From Beijerinckiaceae bacterium (GTDB lineage: Bacteria > Pseudomonadota > Alphaproteobacteria > Rhizobiales > Beijerinckiaceae), in contig JAPZUD010000005.1 in the NCBI GenBank assembly GCA_027533425.1, positions 124,001 through 188,000 on the forward strand: a stretch of DNA of 64,000 nt, written 5' to 3'. Positions 1,444 to 32,817 of this stretch are shown one piece after another. The stretch's first letter is position 1; every line of letters starts with the position of its first letter. The translations under genes and the position numbers were made by a program. The notes beneath the pieces are model-generated. The model worked only from the letters and a program-made list of their open reading frames with translations. It was not told the origin of the DNA and did no database searches.

Positions 1444-3039
1444 CTAGGCCTGACTAACTGTCTGCCAGTCGAGGCCGAATCGCGCGAGGTATTTTTTCAG
1501 GCGATCTGCGTCATTGGCGCTGGTCTTCCGCGCCCGTGATGCGGCGAACAGGGTTCGGCCGGCCGCGCTGAGGCTCGAATGCTCGCGGCAGACACGGATC
1601 ACGGAAGCGAGTTGGATCTGGTCAAACAGGTCGAGAGCGCGAAGCTCCTCCTCACCGAGGAGTGTTGCAAGCAAGGTGTGCCCGTCATTGGCCCCCGTGC
1701 GTGACCAGCTGCGCTTGAGGCGCGCAATCTCCTCGATGACCACCTCCTCGGTGATCCGGCCCAAGGGCGCAAACGTCGCCATGCGTGTGACCGATGCGCC
1801 GAGATCACGGAAATTCGCGTTCCAGCTTGCCTCGGGCGATGTCGCAAAGGCGAGATAACGGGCCCGCGCCTCCCGATTGAAGGTGATGTGCTCGTTCTCT
1901 CGGGCGGCGTAGCTGCGCAGTTCGAAATCGAGATTGGGCTCGATATCCTCGCGGCGATCGGCAAGGCTGGGCAGTTCGAAAGTCCAGAGATTGAGACGCG
2001 CCAGCAGATCTTCGCGGAATTTGCCCTGCCCGACATCCTGCGAGAGATCGCGGTTGGTGCCGGCGATCAACTGGAAATCGCTCGCCACTTCCTTGTCGGC
2101 GCCCATAGGCAGGAAGCGCTTCTCTTCGATGGCGCGCAGGATCATCGCCTGCTCGTCGATGCCGAGTTCGCCGATCTCGTCGAGAAAGAGAATGCCGCCA
2201 TCCGCCTTGCGCAGGAGGCCCGCACGATCCTGCAAGGCGCCGGTGAACGCCCCTTTCGCATGGCCGAAGAGGGTCGACATCGCGCCATCACCCCGAAGGG
2301 TAGCGCAATTCACCTCCACGAAATCCCCGCGCACCTGATGGCGCGCCTTCTTCAGCGCATAGATCCTCTGTGCAAGCTGCGATTTTCCCGCACCGGTCGG
2401 GCCTGTCAGCAGCAACGGCGCGCGCGACCGGATCGCGACCTGCTCGATGCGGTCGATCATCCGGTTGAAAGCCGCATTCCGCGTGGCAATACCGGATTTG
2501 AGGAAGGATGACCCCTCTGCCTGCTCTGCCTTGAAGCGGGTCGCGATATGGTCATAGCGGGCAAGGTTGATGTCGATGATGTCGTATTTGCCGGGCCCGC
2601 CATCCTGCCAGCGGCGCGGCGGCGTGAGCTGGAGGATCTGTGCAGGAATGTAATGCGCCTCGATCAGCAGGAACCAGCAGATCTGCGCCACATGCGTGCC
2701 GGTTGTGATGTTGACGAAATACTCCTCGGTATCCGGGTCGAAGGGGTAGGCGCGCGCAAAATCATGCATCGCGGCGTAGACCTCGCCGAAATCCCACGGG
2801 TTCTTGAGGTTCATCACATGGCAACGCGCCTCGGTCTCGGGCGAGACCTGGGCGATATCCGCCGTGATGCGCTGGGCGAGCGTCTCGGCATGGTTGTCGT
2901 GGATGATCTCGATCCGGTCGACGACCATATCCTCATGCTGGCAAACCGCGACCGTGGGCCGCCAGCGTTCCCAGCGATTGTGCTTGCCGGCATCAAGCGA
3001 TGTGCCGAGAAAGCCGATGACGACGCGACGCTTGGTCAT
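1444..3039 (-). CDS. rtcR: RtcR, sigma54-dependent activator of the RNA-repair operon
   Basis: A 531-residue protein matching RtcR in length and order. Residues 1-180 form the RtcR N-terminal (CARF-type) sensor domain, followed by a sigma54-interacting AAA+ domain with Walker A GPTGAGKS (213-220), the GAFTGA sigma54-contact loop (263-268) and Walker B GGILFLDE (281-288), then a C-terminal helix-turn-helix region. RtcR proteins hydrolyse ATP to open sigma54 promoters once the sensor domain detects an RNA-damage ligand. It is divergent from rsr, with a good sigma54 promoter in the gap, the classic regulator/target layout. AGGATAAGAGCA precedes the ATG at 3039. This is the clearest evidence that the locus to its right is a damage-induced RNA-repair operon. 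Confidence 0.95.
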   Translation of the reverse strand: MTKRRVVIGFLGTSLDAGKHNRWERWRPTVAVCQHEDMVVDRIEIIHDNHAETLAQRITADIAQVSPETEARCHVMNLKNPWDFGEVYAAMHDFARAYPFDPDTEEYFVNITTGTHVAQICWFLLIEAHYIPAQILQLTPPRRWQDGGPGKYDIIDINLARYDHIATRFKAEQAEGSSFLKSGIATRNAAFNRMIDRIEQVAIRSRAPLLLTGPTGAGKSQLAQRIYALKKARHQVRGDFVEVNCATLRGDGAMSTLFGHAKGAFTGALQDRAGLLRKADGGILFLDEIGELGIDEQAMILRAIEEKRFLPMGADKEVASDFQLIAGTNRDLSQDVGQGKFREDLLARLNLWTFELPSLADRREDIEPNLDFELRSYAARENEHITFNREARARYLAFATSPEASWNANFRDLGASVTRMATFAPLGRITEEVVIEEIARLKRSWSRTGANDGHTLLATLLGEEELRALDLFDQIQLASVIRVCREHSSLSAAGRTLFAASRARKTSANDADRLKKYLARFGLDWQTVSQA

Positions 3040-3190: not shown

Positions 3191-3206
3191 TGGCACGAAC
3201 CTAGCA
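3191..3206 (+). promoter_or_regulatory. Sigma54 (-24/-12) promoter of the rsr-Y RNA-rtcBA operon
   Basis: TGGCACGAACCTAGCA matches the consensus TGGCAC-N5-TTGCA at all but one base. The invariant GG (3192-3193) and GC (3204-3205) are separated by the required ten bases. Transcription should start near 3217. Its position opposite the sigma54 activator gene rtcR fits exactly. It also rules out the ATG at 3207 as the rsr start, because that codon would lie upstream of the transcript. Confidence 0.85.
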
Positions 3207-3239: not shown

Positions 3240-4802
3240 ATGGCAAACAAATCCGTGTTTGCATCGATCGTTGGAAAGCTGCTCCCGCGCCCCGATGGGA
3301 AGAACCACGAGGGGGCTCCGGCCTATAGCCTCACGCCGCGCCACAAGCTGGCGCAGCTTGCGGCCACGGGCACGCTCAACCGCACCTTCTACGCGGAGGC
3401 GCGGGAGCAGCTGGACGAAATCATGCACCTGCTTCCGGAAATCGAGCCGGAATTCATGGCGAAGACGGCCATCTATGCCCGCGAGAAGGGCTTCATGAAG
3501 GATATGCCGGCCTTGCTGCTGGCCTATCTCTCCATGATGCAGTCCGAGCATTTCAGCCTCGCCTTCAACCGCGTGGTCGATAACGGCAAGATGTTGCGCA
3601 ACGTCGTGCAGATCCTGCGCTCGGGTGCCACGGGGCGGAAGTCCCTCGGCACCCGGCCCAAGCGCCTTGTCCAGCTCTGGCTGGAGAACGCCTCGGACCG
3701 CGAGATCATGCGGGCGGCGGTGGGAAATCACCCCTCGCTGGCCGATGTGATCAGGATGGTTCATCCCAGGCCGCGTTCCGCGGCGCGGGCGGCGCTCTAT
3801 GGCTACCTGATCGGGAAGCCGCATGATGTCTCGGCCCTGCCGGAGATCGTGCGGGATTTCGAGGCGTTCAAGGCAGATCCGTCCCGCGAGGTGCCGGACG
3901 TACCGTTCCAGATGCTGACGGCGCTGCCGCTCACGCGGGAGCACTGGATCGCCATCGGCCGCAAGGCGGGCTGGCACATGCTGCGGATGAACCTCAACAC
4001 CTTTGCGCGCCACAAGGCGTTCGAGGATGAGGATTTCGTCCGCCACGTGGCCGAACGTCTGCGCGACGAGACGGCGATCCGGAAGGCGAAGGTCTTCCCG
4101 TACCAGCTGATGGTGGCGCATGCGATGGCGTCGAACGTGCCCGTGCCTGTCCGGGAGGCCTTGCAGGACGCGATGGAAGTCGCGGTCGGCAATGTCCCGG
4201 CGGTGAACGGTAAGGTCGTCATCTGCCCGGACGTGTCCGGGTCGATGTCTTCGCCGGTCACCGGGCATCGTCGCGGTGCCACGACAGCGGTGCGCTGCAT
4301 TGATGTCGCGGGCCTCGTGGCGGCGGCCTTCCTCAGGGCGAACCGCGAGGCGCGGGTCATCCCGTTCGAGCAGGATGTGGTCAAGGTCGACCTCAACCCG
4401 CGCGATACGGTGCTGACCAACGCAGCGAAGCTCGCTTCGATCGGCGGAGGCGGAACCAACTGCTCGGCCCCGCTCGAAAAGCTGGTGGCCGAGAAGGCGA
4501 AGGTCGATCTGGTCGTGTTCGTCTCGGATAACGAGTCCTGGATGGATGCCGATCCGAATGGCTATCGCGGAACCGCGATGATGCAGAGCTGGCAGAAGCT
4601 GAAGGTGCGCAACCCGGAGGCAAAGCTCGTCTGCATCAACATCCAGCCTTCCACCACCACGCAAGCGGTGGAGCGGCCGGATATCCTCAATATCGGGGGT
4701 TTCTCCGATGCGGTGTTCGATGTGATCGGCGCGTTCCATCGCGGCGAACTCACGCCCGACCACTGGGTTGGCGAGATCGAGAAGATCGCACTGGCCGATT
4801 GA
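3240..4802 (+). CDS. rsr: Rsr, bacterial Ro60 ortholog (TROVE domain ring protein)
   Basis: A 520-residue Ro60-family protein. The N-terminal and central part is the HEAT-like TROVE ring. The C-terminal third is a von Willebrand A fold with a MIDAS-type motif PDVSGSMSS. Ro60 proteins bind Y RNAs on the outer ring surface and structured or misfolded RNA through the cavity; in Deinococcus the Y RNA tethers Ro60 to polynucleotide phosphorylase. The start at 3240 is chosen because AGAAGG (3225-3230) lies nine bases upstream and because it is downstream of the expected sigma54 transcription start; in-frame ATGs at 3207 and 3231 fit worse. Four Y RNAs follow directly, then rtcB and rtcA. This is the Salmonella-type rsr-yrl-rtcBA arrangement with extra RNAs. 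Confidence 0.93.
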   Translation: MANKSVFASIVGKLLPRPDGKNHEGAPAYSLTPRHKLAQLAATGTLNRTFYAEAREQLDEIMHLLPEIEPEFMAKTAIYAREKGFMKDMPALLLAYLSMMQSEHFSLAFNRVVDNGKMLRNVVQILRSGATGRKSLGTRPKRLVQLWLENASDREIMRAAVGNHPSLADVIRMVHPRPRSAARAALYGYLIGKPHDVSALPEIVRDFEAFKADPSREVPDVPFQMLTALPLTREHWIAIGRKAGWHMLRMNLNTFARHKAFEDEDFVRHVAERLRDETAIRKAKVFPYQLMVAHAMASNVPVPVREALQDAMEVAVGNVPAVNGKVVICPDVSGSMSSPVTGHRRGATTAVRCIDVAGLVAAAFLRANREARVIPFEQDVVKVDLNPRDTVLTNAAKLASIGGGGTNCSAPLEKLVAEKAKVDLVVFVSDNESWMDADPNGYRGTAMMQSWQKLKVRNPEAKLVCINIQPSTTTQAVERPDILNIGGFSDAVFDVIGAFHRGELTPDHWVGEIEKIALAD

Positions 4803-4850: not shown

Positions 4851-4960
4851 CCATGGCGAATGCCGACGGGACTACATCCACCACCAAGGCGCGGCGGCAA
4901 GGAAACCGCCACCGGACTCATCGTTATCCGGAGCCGGTCTCGTCACTCTCGTCGCCATGG
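4851..4960 (+). ncRNA. Y RNA 1 (Ro60-associated, head without tRNA features)
   Basis: Terminal helix CCATGGCGA (4851-4859) with TCGCCATGG (4952-4960), nine pairs. The Ro-binding motif GNCGAANG appears as GGCGAATG (4855-4862). A second helix GACGGGA (4865-4871) pairs with TCTCGTC (4938-4944). Between the two is an asymmetric internal loop, ATGCC against ACTCTCG. The head holds two hairpins: GGCGG/CCGCC (4893-4897, 4906-4910) and CCGGA/TCCGG (4912-4916, 4927-4931). There is no T-loop sequence GTTCRA, so this copy does not mimic tRNA. Bacterial Y RNAs tether Rsr to a partner protein. The RNA is expected to be processed from the sigma54 transcript. Ends are taken from the helix and may be off by a few bases. 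Confidence 0.8.
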
Positions 4961-4992: not shown

Positions 4993-5127
4993 CGTGACGA
5001 ATGCAGGCGGAACTACATCGCTGTTGACGATCCGGGTCGCGGGTTCGAATCCCGTCAGGTCCATCACTGGGGGCCTGTAGCTCAGCCAGGTAGAGCAGGA
5101 ATGTTTCGCCGACCCCTTGTCGTCACG
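4993..5127 (+). ncRNA. yrlA: Y RNA 2, YrlA-type tRNA mimic
   Basis: Terminal helix CGTGACGA (4993-5000) with TCGTCACG (5120-5127), motif GACGAATG, second helix GGCGGAA (5006-5012) with TTTCGCC (5104-5110). The head is a tRNA core in permuted order: T-arm first (stem 5039-5043/5051-5055, loop TTCGAAT), then the acceptor 3' strand CAGGTCC (5056-5062), an eight-base closing loop, the acceptor 5' strand GGGCCTG (5071-5077; all seven pairs form, one G-U), T8-A9 (5078-5079) and a D-arm GCTC/GAGC whose loop keeps the GG pair. Only three pairs (TCC 5031-5033, GGA 5098-5100) replace the anticodon stem, which leads into the Ro-binding stem. This is the published YrlA design, with no free CCA end. Confidence 0.9.
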
Positions 5128-5140
5128 GTTTTCCCTTCGC

Positions 5141-5269
5141 GCGGCGAATGCCAGCGGGACTCCATCGGTAGAGCACTTTCCTTCGGGGAAGCGGTCGGTG
5201 GTTCAAATCCACCCTGCGCCGCAAGGCGCCAGTAGCTCAATAAACCGTCTCGCGAAATCTCGTCGCCGC
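5141..5269 (+). ncRNA. Y RNA 3, tRNA-like cloverleaf permuted at the D loop
   Basis: Terminal helix GCGGCGA (5141-5147) with TCGCCGC (5263-5269), motif GGCGAATG, second helix GCGGGAC (5154-5160) with GTCTCGC (5247-5253). The head reads D-loop 3' part GGTA (5167-5170), D-stem strand GAGC (5171-5174), A26, a six-pair hairpin CTTTCC-TTCG-GGGAAG (5176-5191) in place of the anticodon arm, a five-base variable loop CGGTC, T-arm GGTGG/CCACC with loop TTCAAAT (5197-5213), an acceptor helix capped by GCAA (5214-5232, one bulged C), T8-A9 and D-stem strand GCTC (5235-5238), which pairs back to 5171-5174. The Ro-binding stem therefore emerges from the D loop, not from the anticodon stem as in Y2. The UUCG cap leaves no anticodon. 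Confidence 0.87.
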
Positions 5270-5292
5270 ACCCTTTCCGTCTTCGTCGTGAC

Positions 5293-5410
5293 GGCGTGGC
5301 GAATGCCGGTGGGACTACATCGGTAGGGCCATATGGCTTGAGGTTCGACTCCTCCCGCAGGTGGGGCAACCCGCTGGCGAGACAGTCTCACCATCCCTTG
5401 TCGCCACGCC
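5293..5410 (+). ncRNA. Y RNA 4, reduced tRNA-like head
   Basis: Terminal helix GGCGTGGCGA (5293-5302) with TCGCCACGCC (5401-5410), ten pairs, motif GGCGAATG, second helix GGTGGGACT (5308-5316) with AGTCTCACC (5384-5392), nine pairs. Like Y3 it continues with CATCGGTAG. The head then has a short hairpin GGGCC-ATAT-GGCTT (5326-5339), a T-arm GAGG-TTCGACT-CCTC (5340-5354) and a long hairpin capped by GCAA (about 5356-5379, one mismatch). No D-stem partner GCTC is present, so it keeps the T-arm and closed acceptor but has lost the D stem. The helices overlap a spurious upstream rtcB start at 5361, which is rejected for that reason. Confidence 0.82.
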
Positions 5411-5471: not shown

Positions 5472-6716
<1,245 letters not shown>

Positions 6717-6770: not shown

Positions 6771-7793
6771 ATGATGATCATCGATGGTTCCCTTGGTGAG
6801 GGGGGCGGGCAGATCCTGCGCTCCTCGCTCACATTGTCGATGGTCACGGGAAAGCCCTTCGCCATCGAGAACATTCGCGCGGGCCGCGAGAAGCCCGGCC
6901 TGATGCGCCAGCATCTGACGGCTGTGAAGGCGGCTGCGGCGATCTGCGGGGCGGAAACGCGCCATGCCGAAATCGGCTCGACGCGGCTGGCCTTCGAGCC
7001 GGGCCGCGTTGCCGCAGGAGCGCATGTCTTCAATATCGGTTCGGCCGGTTCAACGTCGCTCGTCTTGCAGACATTGCTGCTGCCGCTGGCTTTGTGCGGC
7101 GCTCCTTCGCGCCTCGTCATCCAGGGTGGAACGCATAACCTCGCCGCACCGCCCTTCGAGTTCATCGCACGCGCTTTCCTGCCGTTGCTGGCAAGGATTG
7201 GCTTCTGCGTGAGCATCCGGCTGACCCGACCAGGTTTCTTCCCGGCCGGAGGCGGTGAGATTGTGGTCGAGATCGAGCCTGCGGCGAAGCTGGAGCCGCT
7301 CATGCTGGAGACGCGCGGCGGGCTCGTCCGGCGTCGCATCGAGGCGCAGGTTGCGAACCTGCCCTTCGCGATCGCACGGCGCGAGGTTGCCCATGCCGGG
7401 GAGATGCTCGGCTGGGCGGATGCGGAACGCGTCCCCTGCCAGATCGACGGCGCGCCGAGCACCGGCAATGTCGTGCTGATCGAGGTCGAGCACGAAGCGG
7501 TCACCGAGGTCTTCACCGGCTTCGGGCGGCAGGGCGTTTCGGCGGAAGCGGTTGCGGCCACTGCCGCAAGGGAGGCCGGCGACTACCTCGCCGGTGCCAA
7601 TGCGATCGGCCCGCATCTTGCGGACCAGCTCCTCCTGCCGATGGCGCTCGGCGCGGGTGGTTGCTTCACGACCGGCCCGCTGAGCGACCATACGCGCACC
7701 AACATCGGGACAATCCAGCGATTTCTGGATATGCCCGTTGAATTGCGTTCGGAGGCGGAGGGCGTGCGTGTGATCGTGGGCGCAGCATCATGA
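6771..7793 (+). CDS. rtcA: RtcA, RNA 3'-terminal phosphate cyclase
   Basis: A 340-residue RtcA of normal length. It converts RNA 3'-phosphate ends to 2',3'-cyclic phosphates using ATP through an adenylylated histidine, preparing ends for RtcB. Seen are the N-terminal IDGSLGEGGGQILR motif, REKPGLMRQHL, HNLAAPPFEF, PGFFPAGGGE and, near the C terminus, SDHTRTN with the nucleotidyl-acceptor histidine (His307). It is the last gene of the sigma54 operon, 54 bases after rtcB, and is followed by a strong terminator. ATG occurs twice in a row (6771, 6774), so the first residue is uncertain by one codon. The upstream ribosome-binding site is weak. Confidence 0.95.
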   Translation: MMIIDGSLGEGGGQILRSSLTLSMVTGKPFAIENIRAGREKPGLMRQHLTAVKAAAAICGAETRHAEIGSTRLAFEPGRVAAGAHVFNIGSAGSTSLVLQTLLLPLALCGAPSRLVIQGGTHNLAAPPFEFIARAFLPLLARIGFCVSIRLTRPGFFPAGGGEIVVEIEPAAKLEPLMLETRGGLVRRRIEAQVANLPFAIARREVAHAGEMLGWADAERVPCQIDGAPSTGNVVLIEVEHEAVTEVFTGFGRQGVSAEAVAATAAREAGDYLAGANAIGPHLADQLLLPMALGAGGCFTTGPLSDHTRTNIGTIQRFLDMPVELRSEAEGVRVIVGAAS

Positions 7794-31676: not shown

Positions 31677-32513
31677 TCAGGCCTTCCTGCCCGGGTTCGG
31701 CCAGTTATGGGTTTCCTCGGTTCCGTCCCTGCACCAGCGGTAGAAGGCATCGTAAAGCAACATGCCAGCGTCAAGCTGGGCGAGATCGTCGCTGAACATG
31801 CGCGAGAGCCCAAGGGATGCCGCAAGGAATCCGGCGGCCTGCGGCGCGAGATCGAGCCGGGCGGTATCCGCTGCTCGAACAATCATTGCGAGCCTGTCAA
31901 GTGCGGGCGATAAAAGCCCGAACTCCGTGAGCATCGTGTCGAAGGTGCAGGTATGCGCCGTGCTACCAACCGGCCCGCGATGGCTCCAGAATACGCCATC
32001 GACATCGAACGGCATCGCGCCGAAGCGATCGGCAACAGCTTCGACCTCGGAAGCCGCGACATAGAGGAAAACGGCGTCGGGATCGACAAAGCGACGGATC
32101 AGCCAGGGACAGGCAATGCGGTCGACTTTCGGTCGGGCCCGGGTCACCCAAAGCGAGCGTCCTTGCGCATCGCGCCGCAGGGCATCCGTTCCTTTCGTCA
32201 ATAGCTCGCCGGCGGCAACCCAGCCCTCGAAACCGCCTTCCAGCGAAACGGCATCCGCCCCGGCATGCCGGAGCAGCGCGGCAACACCCTGGCTGAGCTT
32301 GAGCCCCTTCTGGCAGGAGACAACAATGCGCTTGCCCAGATAGACCGGCGCCCATTCCTGGCAGCTACGATAGTCACGGCGCGATGAACCGGGGATCAGG
32401 TGCGGATCGGTCGCAAAATCCTCTTCAATGCGGACATCGATAATGATCGGCGCATCCGGCGTACCGACAAGGCGGGCGAGTTGGGGAACAGTGATTTCAA
32501 TTGGCAGGGCCAT
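31677..32513 (-). CDS. chrB: Rhodanese-ChrB fusion protein, chromate resistance
   Basis: A 278-residue two-domain protein. Residues 1-105 are a rhodanese fold with active-site loop CQKGLKLS (the catalytic cysteine inside VSCQKG). Residues 118-278 are the ChrB C-terminal domain (WVTRARPKVDRIACPWLIRR, then FDVDGVFWSHRGPVGST). ChrB domains accompany ChrA in resistance operons and affect chromate sensing or handling. The rhodanese could supply thiol chemistry for reduction. First gene of a two-gene operon with chrA. Confidence 0.88.
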   Translation of the reverse strand: MALPIEITVPQLARLVGTPDAPIIIDVRIEEDFATDPHLIPGSSRRDYRSCQEWAPVYLGKRIVVSCQKGLKLSQGVAALLRHAGADAVSLEGGFEGWVAAGELLTKGTDALRRDAQGRSLWVTRARPKVDRIACPWLIRRFVDPDAVFLYVAASEVEAVADRFGAMPFDVDGVFWSHRGPVGSTAHTCTFDTMLTEFGLLSPALDRLAMIVRAADTARLDLAPQAAGFLAASLGLSRMFSDDLAQLDAGMLLYDAFYRWCRDGTEETHNWPNPGRKA

Positions 32514-32817
32514 GAGCGTCCATCCCTCTCGTGCGGGGACAATGGACGCGAATGTTGGGCCTTGGCCTCACGGGGTCTTCGCGAATAACCCCTTGCGAAA
32601 TGGGTTAGGATAATGCGGGATGAGCGTCAAGCGATCGATGCTCCCGCACCGATGGACCGAGAACTGATCAATTCGCAGGTCTTTGTTAAAACGTGCTCGG
32701 CGGCTCCGTTCGCTCTCAGGACATTTCGGCCCGAATTCTCTGAATGACCAAACCGTCCGGTTTCGGCTTCTCGATGAAATGCGCTGAATAACGGCAATGG
32801 CGGCGCATTCCAGCCCT
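32514..32817. other. Gap between chrB and nsrR, with one tiny reading frame
   Basis: 304 bases. It must contain the chrB promoter. AAACCG-TC-CGGTTT (32750-32763) is an inverted repeat. The only coding-like segment is the 30-residue frame at 32716-32808, described separately. Confidence 0.5.
32716..32808 (-). CDS. Possible 30-residue small protein downstream of nsrR
   Basis: A short reading frame whose ATG at 32808 lies ten bases after the nsrR stop, with AGGGCTGG just before it. It ends at TGA 32716-32718. The product (ends LVIQRIRAEMS) has no membrane segment. It could be a leader, a small protein or gene debris; support is weak. Confidence 0.2.
   Translation of the reverse strand: MRRHCRYSAHFIEKPKPDGLVIQRIRAEMS

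Follow-up and report, generated by a model that had tools for sequence, protein, structure and literature searches.

A bacterial Y RNA with a predicted tRNA-like body that is circularly permuted and opened in the D loop

In a 64,000-nucleotide stretch of DNA from a Beijerinckiaceae bacterium (contig JAPZUD010000005.1, positions 124,001 to 188,000; hereafter the window), an RNA that we call Y3 is encoded on the plus strand at 5141-5269, between rsr and rtcB in an RNA-repair operon like that of Rhabdaerophilum. Comparison with homologues confirms the predicted form of Y3 as a circularly permuted tRNA cloverleaf whose opening splits the D loop into its two halves, with a Ro/Rsr-type stem attached there. 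In tRNA numbering, the first half of the molecule runs from the Ro stem through G18-G19-U-A, the 3′ strand of the D stem, position 26, the anticodon arm and the variable loop to the T arm, and the second half runs through the acceptor 3′ strand, a GCAA cap, the acceptor 5′ strand, positions 8-9, the 5′ strand of the D stem and positions 14-15 back to the Ro stem. An earlier sequence-only reading had named these tRNA landmarks in permuted order and had placed the Ro-type stem in the D loop; each element was found at its place (Table 1), and the stem is borne out by the pairs 5141-5146/5264-5269 and 5154-5160/5247-5253. We think it probable that Y3, as a bacterial Y RNA, has this nearly complete tRNA body as its effector module and most likely acts as an adaptor on Rsr.

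Like other bacterial Y RNAs, Y3 is encoded beside the Rsr/Ro60 gene and possesses a terminal Ro-type stem, with a GAATGC-type 5′ strand and a CUYGUCGCC-type 3′ strand. It also contains the four tRNA helices and the elbow residues that mark a tRNA mimic whatever their order. Homologues were sought by searching 397 genomes of the order for Rsr (33 gave a match, in some cases a weak one), among contigs of named genomes (23 loci) and with a class-wide model search; together these gave a D-loop-opened set of 23 sequences from 22 loci. These score 89-137 bits against a model, R1, the next match in the examined loci reaching 63.6 bits; for 18 of the 23 (L058 being entered as L007) the score holds by construction, since they built the model. 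Outside its building set are L060, L061, L068, L084 and the second copy in L062, together with the later L157, L158 and L161, which score 106.4, 83.5 and 114.3 bits and are not part of the 23-sequence counts. The GAATGC motif, starting at 5146 in Y3, is conserved in 23/23.

The tRNA character of the core was examined by a rotation test, in which each rotation of each core was scored against a profile of 30 distinct host tRNAs (called by ARAGORN from 30 of the 42 Rfam tRNA matches in the host, and including no tRNA-Leu and no tRNA-Ser). The best rotation of the Y3 core starts inside GCAA and scores 36.3 bits, compared to 19.8 for the linear order; 20 shuffles gave at most 0.8 bits, and the profile's own 30 tRNAs 35.0-64.1. 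Across the 23 homologues the gain over the linear order ranges from 0.5 to 16.5 bits, and the best-cut interval lies inside the acceptor hairpin in 18/23. ARAGORN likewise calls a tRNA once the Y3 core is put in un-permuted order, without GCAA and with CCA added, but not in the linear order; the closest of the 30 host tRNAs is tRNA-Thr(ggt), at 74%. The elbow residues are well kept, with the GG in 23/23, U8 in 21/23, A14 in 22/23 and a TTC T loop in 19/23, and the acceptor caps are of GNRA type in 13/23. As a tRNA gene Y3 falls short: it scores 21.3 bits against the Rfam tRNA model (cut-off 29), and UUCG replaces the anticodon. The sequence-only reading had held that such an RNA cannot decode, which stands for Y3 with its UUCG cap and an acceptor that is a closed hairpin with no CCA end. 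It stands for the homologues too, with one partial exception. By contiguous pairs, a four-base cap ends the anticodon arm in 12/23, and the rest have 3 to 14 unpaired or interrupted bases; the partial exception is L063, with a five-pair arm and a seven-base loop, CGAAAAA, that lacks U33.

The pairing of 5171-5174 with 5235-5238, which closes the cloverleaf as its D stem, had been singled out for a covariation check, and compensatory changes were indeed found there. All 92 cells of this stem are paired among the 23 aligned homologues, whereas sliding the partner by 1-3 columns leaves 21-50% paired. Seven cells are changed on both sides, from A-U to C-G in three sequences, from A-U to G-C in one and from G-C to A-U in three; the GAGC/GCTC of Y3 accordingly appears as GCGC/GCGC in 3/23, GAAC/GTTC in 3/23 and GGaGC/GCCC, with a bulged A, in 1/23, and two sequences show one-sided changes of G-U type. 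When placed on a quick Rsr tree, in which 21 of the 48 rows have the class I D-loop-opened form (the form of Y3), these amount to at least four independent double compensatory changes, at least three at the first pair and at least one at the second; the one in L034 is surrounded by relatives without the change, at forks whose SH-aLRT support is 95-99. The variant D stems (L007, L058-L060; L034, L063, L065) resemble those of particular host tRNAs, namely GTTT/GAAC of tRNA-Gln and GCGC/GCGC of tRNA-Pro, so that in addition to point compensation an exchange with tRNA genes may have taken place. Over the whole 23-row alignment, which was fitted to the structure and favours it, 96.4% of cells are paired and 26/35 pairs show double changes, with a covariation score of 0.517 against 0.177 when shuffled and at most 0.114 with slid partners. 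Compensatory changes occur in every helix, and Ro-type helices 1 and 2 covary. On these comparative grounds the predicted cloverleaf of Y3 with its closing D stem, the elbow residues, the hairpin caps and the Ro-type stem can be regarded as established.

The D-loop-opened form, as recognised by its predicted structure, is wider than one genus. Class I is found in 21/50 rsr loci (the window, L033-L039, L058-L065, L068, L070-L072 and L074), a count that leaves aside the duplicates L001-L003 and L006, the partial L054, the distant L032 and weak Rsr matches without loci. In the class-wide R1 search, 85/385 genomes passed an E-value of 0.001; among nine loci inspected, L084 (genome G438, 97.8 bits) carries the D-loop-opened form, L087, L095, L096 and L100 read as ordinary tRNAs, and L085, L086, L088 and L089 lie among other Y RNAs. 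The uninspected matches all lie below 60 bits, and only the window's own genome and G438 were counted from this search. An Rsr match was present in 69 of 72,556 plasmid records, of which three regions were read (L157, L158 and L161); these hold rsr-Y RNA-rtcB operons on large Rhizobium and Methylosinus plasmids and include the class I form, which lies at 4534-4672 in L157 (Rhizobium etli CIAT 652) and at 4495-4618 in L158 (Methylosinus trichosporium OB3b). One class I locus, L036, comes from a record titled Mycobacterium sp. KBS0706, and its Rsr groups with Inquilinus limosus (SH-aLRT 100), pointing to transfer or a misnamed genome.

A second form, class II, is opened at the same point of the D loop and occurs in 15 other rsr loci of the 50. 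It has GG and then CGC as a D-stem strand; its anticodon arm is closed and its variable arm long, its T loop reads TTCRA, and TGGC comes after an acceptor with a GNRA cap. This body is tRNA-Leu-like. Eleven of the 15 loci are betaproteobacterial and four come from the window's own order; eight of the former are from Methylibium, Pseudacidovorax, Pelomonas, Ideonella and Aquabacterium, and the other three are assemblies named only Beta- or Proteobacteria which group with those eight in the Rsr tree. With L162 added to the 15 loci, all 16 acceptor caps are GNRA, and D-stem pairing is 3/3 in 15/16 and 2/3 in L044. No locus among the 50 was found to carry both classes; the chance of this would be 3e-5 if the loci were independent, a figure that serves as description only because they are related and were sampled by lineage. 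Viral contigs gave no match to a class I pattern with the Ro motif, and five to a class II pattern without it, all of which were read as tandem tRNA-Leu-type genes and rejected; the class II pattern alone is therefore no evidence. A home-made descriptor was also set aside, as it had many chance matches outside Y RNAs and missed Y3 because of the acceptor bulge; its shuffle control, with 1/400 for shuffled window spacers against 12/35 for real loci that differ in length, and 0 for the unshuffled window spacer, is not used as evidence.

Several points weigh against our interpretation of Y3. The minimum free energy (MFE) structure given by ViennaRNA, at -53.4 kcal/mol, lacks the D stem; the cloverleaf fold reaches -50.6 kcal/mol. 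The D stem of Y3 has a mean probability of 0.39, and the stem, present in the MFE of 14/23 homologues, is absent in 9/23 including Y3. In the rotation test the optimum is broad in L058, L059, L060 and L068, and L038 is degenerate and gains only 0.5 bit. Neither D-loop-opened class was found in 14/50 rsr loci, and 47/50 have a YrlA-type RNA by a loose pattern, which means that the adaptor idea alone does not explain what a second topology would add. The putative adaptor role is itself carried over by analogy from YrlA and the Deinococcus Y RNA. Taken at face value, the folding energies would make Y3 an extended Ro stem with three hairpins, the GAGC/GCTC match being due to chance or a residue of tRNA ancestry. 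We consider this very unlikely, as the D stem is paired throughout and has undergone independent double changes, while the competing helix (GGT with ACC) is poorly conserved, pairing in 20/23, 14/23 and 13/23 at its three positions with six sequences gapped at the third. Modelled thermodynamics alone is not decisive for this stem, and despite the MFE it is accepted because the comparative evidence decides.

The nearest known relative of Y3 is YrlA (RF02553; Salmonella YrlA, PDB 6CU1). Both have the Ro-type stem and a permuted tRNA body in which a T arm, D residues and a closed acceptor are present, and both are encoded next to rsr within an rtcBA operon. The opening of YrlA is at the anticodon stem and its D hairpin is closed, whereas the opening of Y3 is in the D loop and its anticodon-arm hairpin is closed, its closing helix being the D stem. 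The YrlA model accordingly gives Y3 only 27.6 bits (cut-off 69), with the tRNA part unaligned and the D arm deleted, and since this is far under the cut-off, RNAs of the D-loop-opened form are probably unannotated. The neighbouring Y2 had been proposed to open at the anticodon stem, and it does match YrlA, with D, T and acceptor hairpins closed and the anticodon stem as the opening in the structure line of the Rfam match; it is the only YrlA above cut-off in the window. The weak similarity of Y3 to YrlA might suggest a decaying copy or an assembly artefact, yet the form recurs in separate assemblies, among them a named Rhabdaerophilum genome and Rhizobium and Methylosinus plasmids whose records are marked complete, and each of its helices carries compensatory changes. 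This explanation is refuted for practical purposes and was rejected along with the MFE fold and the permuted tRNA gene.

The last of these would have Y3 trimmed at its ends and joined into a working tRNA. Genes of this kind are described for unicellular algae and an archaeon in the available part of PMC3978253, with the 3′ half before the 5′ half, as in Y3, and maturation into working tRNAs via a circular intermediate. The shared order of halves and the RNA ligase RtcB encoded in the same operon speak for such a gene; unlike one, Y3 has by its sequence a UUCG cap in place of an anticodon loop for decoding, and no CCA end, and its ends form a conserved Ro-type helix where trimming would fall. 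With acceptors that are closed hairpins, and a seven-base loop in 1/23 only (L063), we regard it as a highly improbable explanation. The tRNA-like domain of permuted tmRNA (RF04321) is also in permuted order; its sole match is the T/acceptor part of Y2, at 26.1 bits (cut-off 47), and Y3 gives none. Deinococcus and animal Y RNAs have the Ro-protein-binding stem in common with Y3, according to the available text of PMC4726728. The permuted relation of YrlA to tRNA is already in print, as the accessible portion of PMC11472068 states. No published description of a D-loop-opened Y RNA was found in the literature searched, the key Wolin-laboratory papers being outside its scope, and there is a small but real chance that the primary YrlA papers noticed the form earlier.

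What is described of related RNAs suggests how Y3 may act. In the available part of PMC8394870, YrlA carries dihydrouridine (D) made by DusA and pseudouridine made by TruB, and PNPase is named as a binding partner of its tRNA-like module; in Deinococcus a Y RNA tethers Rsr to PNPase (PMC4726728 and PMC7790460, in the parts available), and in Salmonella the binding of 5′ tRNA halves by RtcR induces the operon, tRNA-Leu(UAG) halves being the best of three tried (PMC7790460, same part). Rsr would bind the Ro-type stem of Y3 and, with that stem attached in the D loop, the pseudo-tRNA would be held by its elbow, leaving the acceptor/T and anticodon arms to project freely; YrlA, by contrast, would be held by its anticodon stem. 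Enzymes that recognise tRNA, such as those forming pseudouridine and dihydrouridine, PNPase and possibly RtcB/RtcA, would then bind Y3 as a tRNA and be tethered to the Rsr ring when broken tRNAs induce the operon. As Y3 has neither anticodon nor CCA end, cutting by anticodon nucleases or charging is not expected. Instead of recruiting enzymes to Rsr, the elbow-tethered mimic might serve as a decoy, either keeping RtcR or a nuclease aimed at tRNA occupied or tuning induction, for which the tRNA-Leu likeness of class II would speak. We consider the decoy unlikely: the anticodon is gone in Y3 and most homologue anticodon arms end in short caps, so that an anticodon nuclease has little to hold, and the mimic is without a 5′ half bearing a cyclic-phosphate end.

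Table 1. Coordinates of the Y3 parts, the surrounding operon and class II examples (window positions unless a locus is named)
Feature	Positions	Strand	Remarks
Y3, whole: D-loop-opened tRNA-mimic Y RNA	5141-5269	+	135.5 bits to model R1, which includes Y3 itself
Outer Ro-type stem, 5′ strand	5141-5146	+	pairs with 5264-5269
Inner Ro-type stem, 5′ strand	5154-5160	+	pairs with 5247-5253
D loop 3′ half, GGTA, G18-G19	5167-5170	+	GG 2-3 bases ahead of the D stem in 23/23
D stem, 3′ tRNA strand, GAGC	5171-5174	+	pairs with GCTC 5235-5238
Position 26, A in Y3	5175	+	A in 8/23 homologues, G in 15/23
Anticodon arm	5176-5191	+	six pairs, UUCG cap, no anticodon
Variable loop CGGTC	5192-5196	+	
T arm GGTGG-TTCAAAT-CCACC	5197-5213	+	100% of cells paired in alignment
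Acceptor as hairpin	5214-5232	+	seven pairs, one bulged base, GCAA cap; 90.3% of cells paired
T8-A9 (U8-A9)	5233-5234	+	U8 in 21/23
D stem, 5′ tRNA strand, GCTC	5235-5238	+	followed by A14
Inner Ro-type stem, 3′ strand	5247-5253	+	
Outer Ro-type stem, 3′ strand	5264-5269	+	
rtcR	1444-3039	-	
rsr (Ro60 orthologue)	3240-4802	+	vWA_Ro60 and TROVE domains
Y1	4852-4959	+	Y RNA; 24.5 bits to YrlA model
Y2	4993-5127	+	YrlA, tRNA mimic opened at the anticodon stem; RF02553, 70.7 bits
Y4	5295-5408	+	tRNA-like Y RNA with GGTA, small hairpin, T arm and acceptor hairpin; 34.1 bits to YrlA model
rtcB	5472-6716	+	
rtcA	6771-7793	+	
Class II examples	L041:6073-6214, L045:6069-6210, L073:848-997, L076:810-961		12 further sequences in the list

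The operon runs from rtcR, on the minus strand, through a sigma-54-like site to rsr, four Y RNAs, rtcB and rtcA. The site, a -24/-12 element at 3191-3206 (+), agrees with the consensus at 9/10 positions, and is one of two such plus-strand sites in the window. The rsr product scores 81.8 bits against the NCBIfam Rsr model, short of the strict cut-off of 900; the closest named relative in the Rsr search is Rhabdaerophilum sp. SD176, with an Rsr that is 96% identical. ARAGORN finds no tRNA genes in the window. A mechanical open reading frame of 95 amino acids (5082-5369, minus strand) lies antisense to Y3, reaching into Y2 and the start of Y4, and is probably no gene, and a chrB-a cis-regulatory RNA (RF03078, 56.1 bits) is present at 32511-32597 (-).

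The remaining Y RNAs differ in their modules. No tRNA module was recognised in Y1, nor a tRNA part in the RNAs of its type, which carry a common CTCAYCGTTA in a hairpin and occur in several operons (window 4852-4959, L158:4372-4479, L059:606-710). In Y4 the D stem is not clear and the T arm is not in the MFE; a D-armless version of the D-loop-opened mimic may perhaps be represented by those Y RNAs (window 5295-5408, L165:658-782, L159:923-1035) that have GG, a T arm and two capped hairpins, one small and one the acceptor, but no clear D stem. L159 is a contig deposited as a Salmonella phage which carries the ends of rsr and rtcB, and its Y4-like RNA follows a YrlA-type one. Several minimal Y RNAs (CGGGGGGAATGC...) of about 70 nucleotides, without an effector module, stand in tandem after rsr in L015, L016, L066 and L067.

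It is possible, and we propose it tentatively, that RNA-repair operons commonly pair two oppositely tethered tRNA mimics, with the anticodon end as the point of attachment in YrlA and the elbow in a D-loop-opened RNA, the second being built interchangeably on a class I or a class II tRNA-Leu-like body, and that Rsr thus displays complementary pseudo-tRNA faces to repair, decay or modification enzymes. If this is true, natural tRNA mimics would have D-loop opening as a second, general topology. The solved YrlA structure represents one way of attaching a tRNA mimic to the Ro ring, and the form of Y3 would be a second, conserved one that leaves other parts free; its occurrence in two tRNA classes points to selection for the tRNA body as such, with an orientation on Rsr that varies. 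An operon that holds both topologies would offer natural controls for what tRNA mimicry by Y RNAs recruits.
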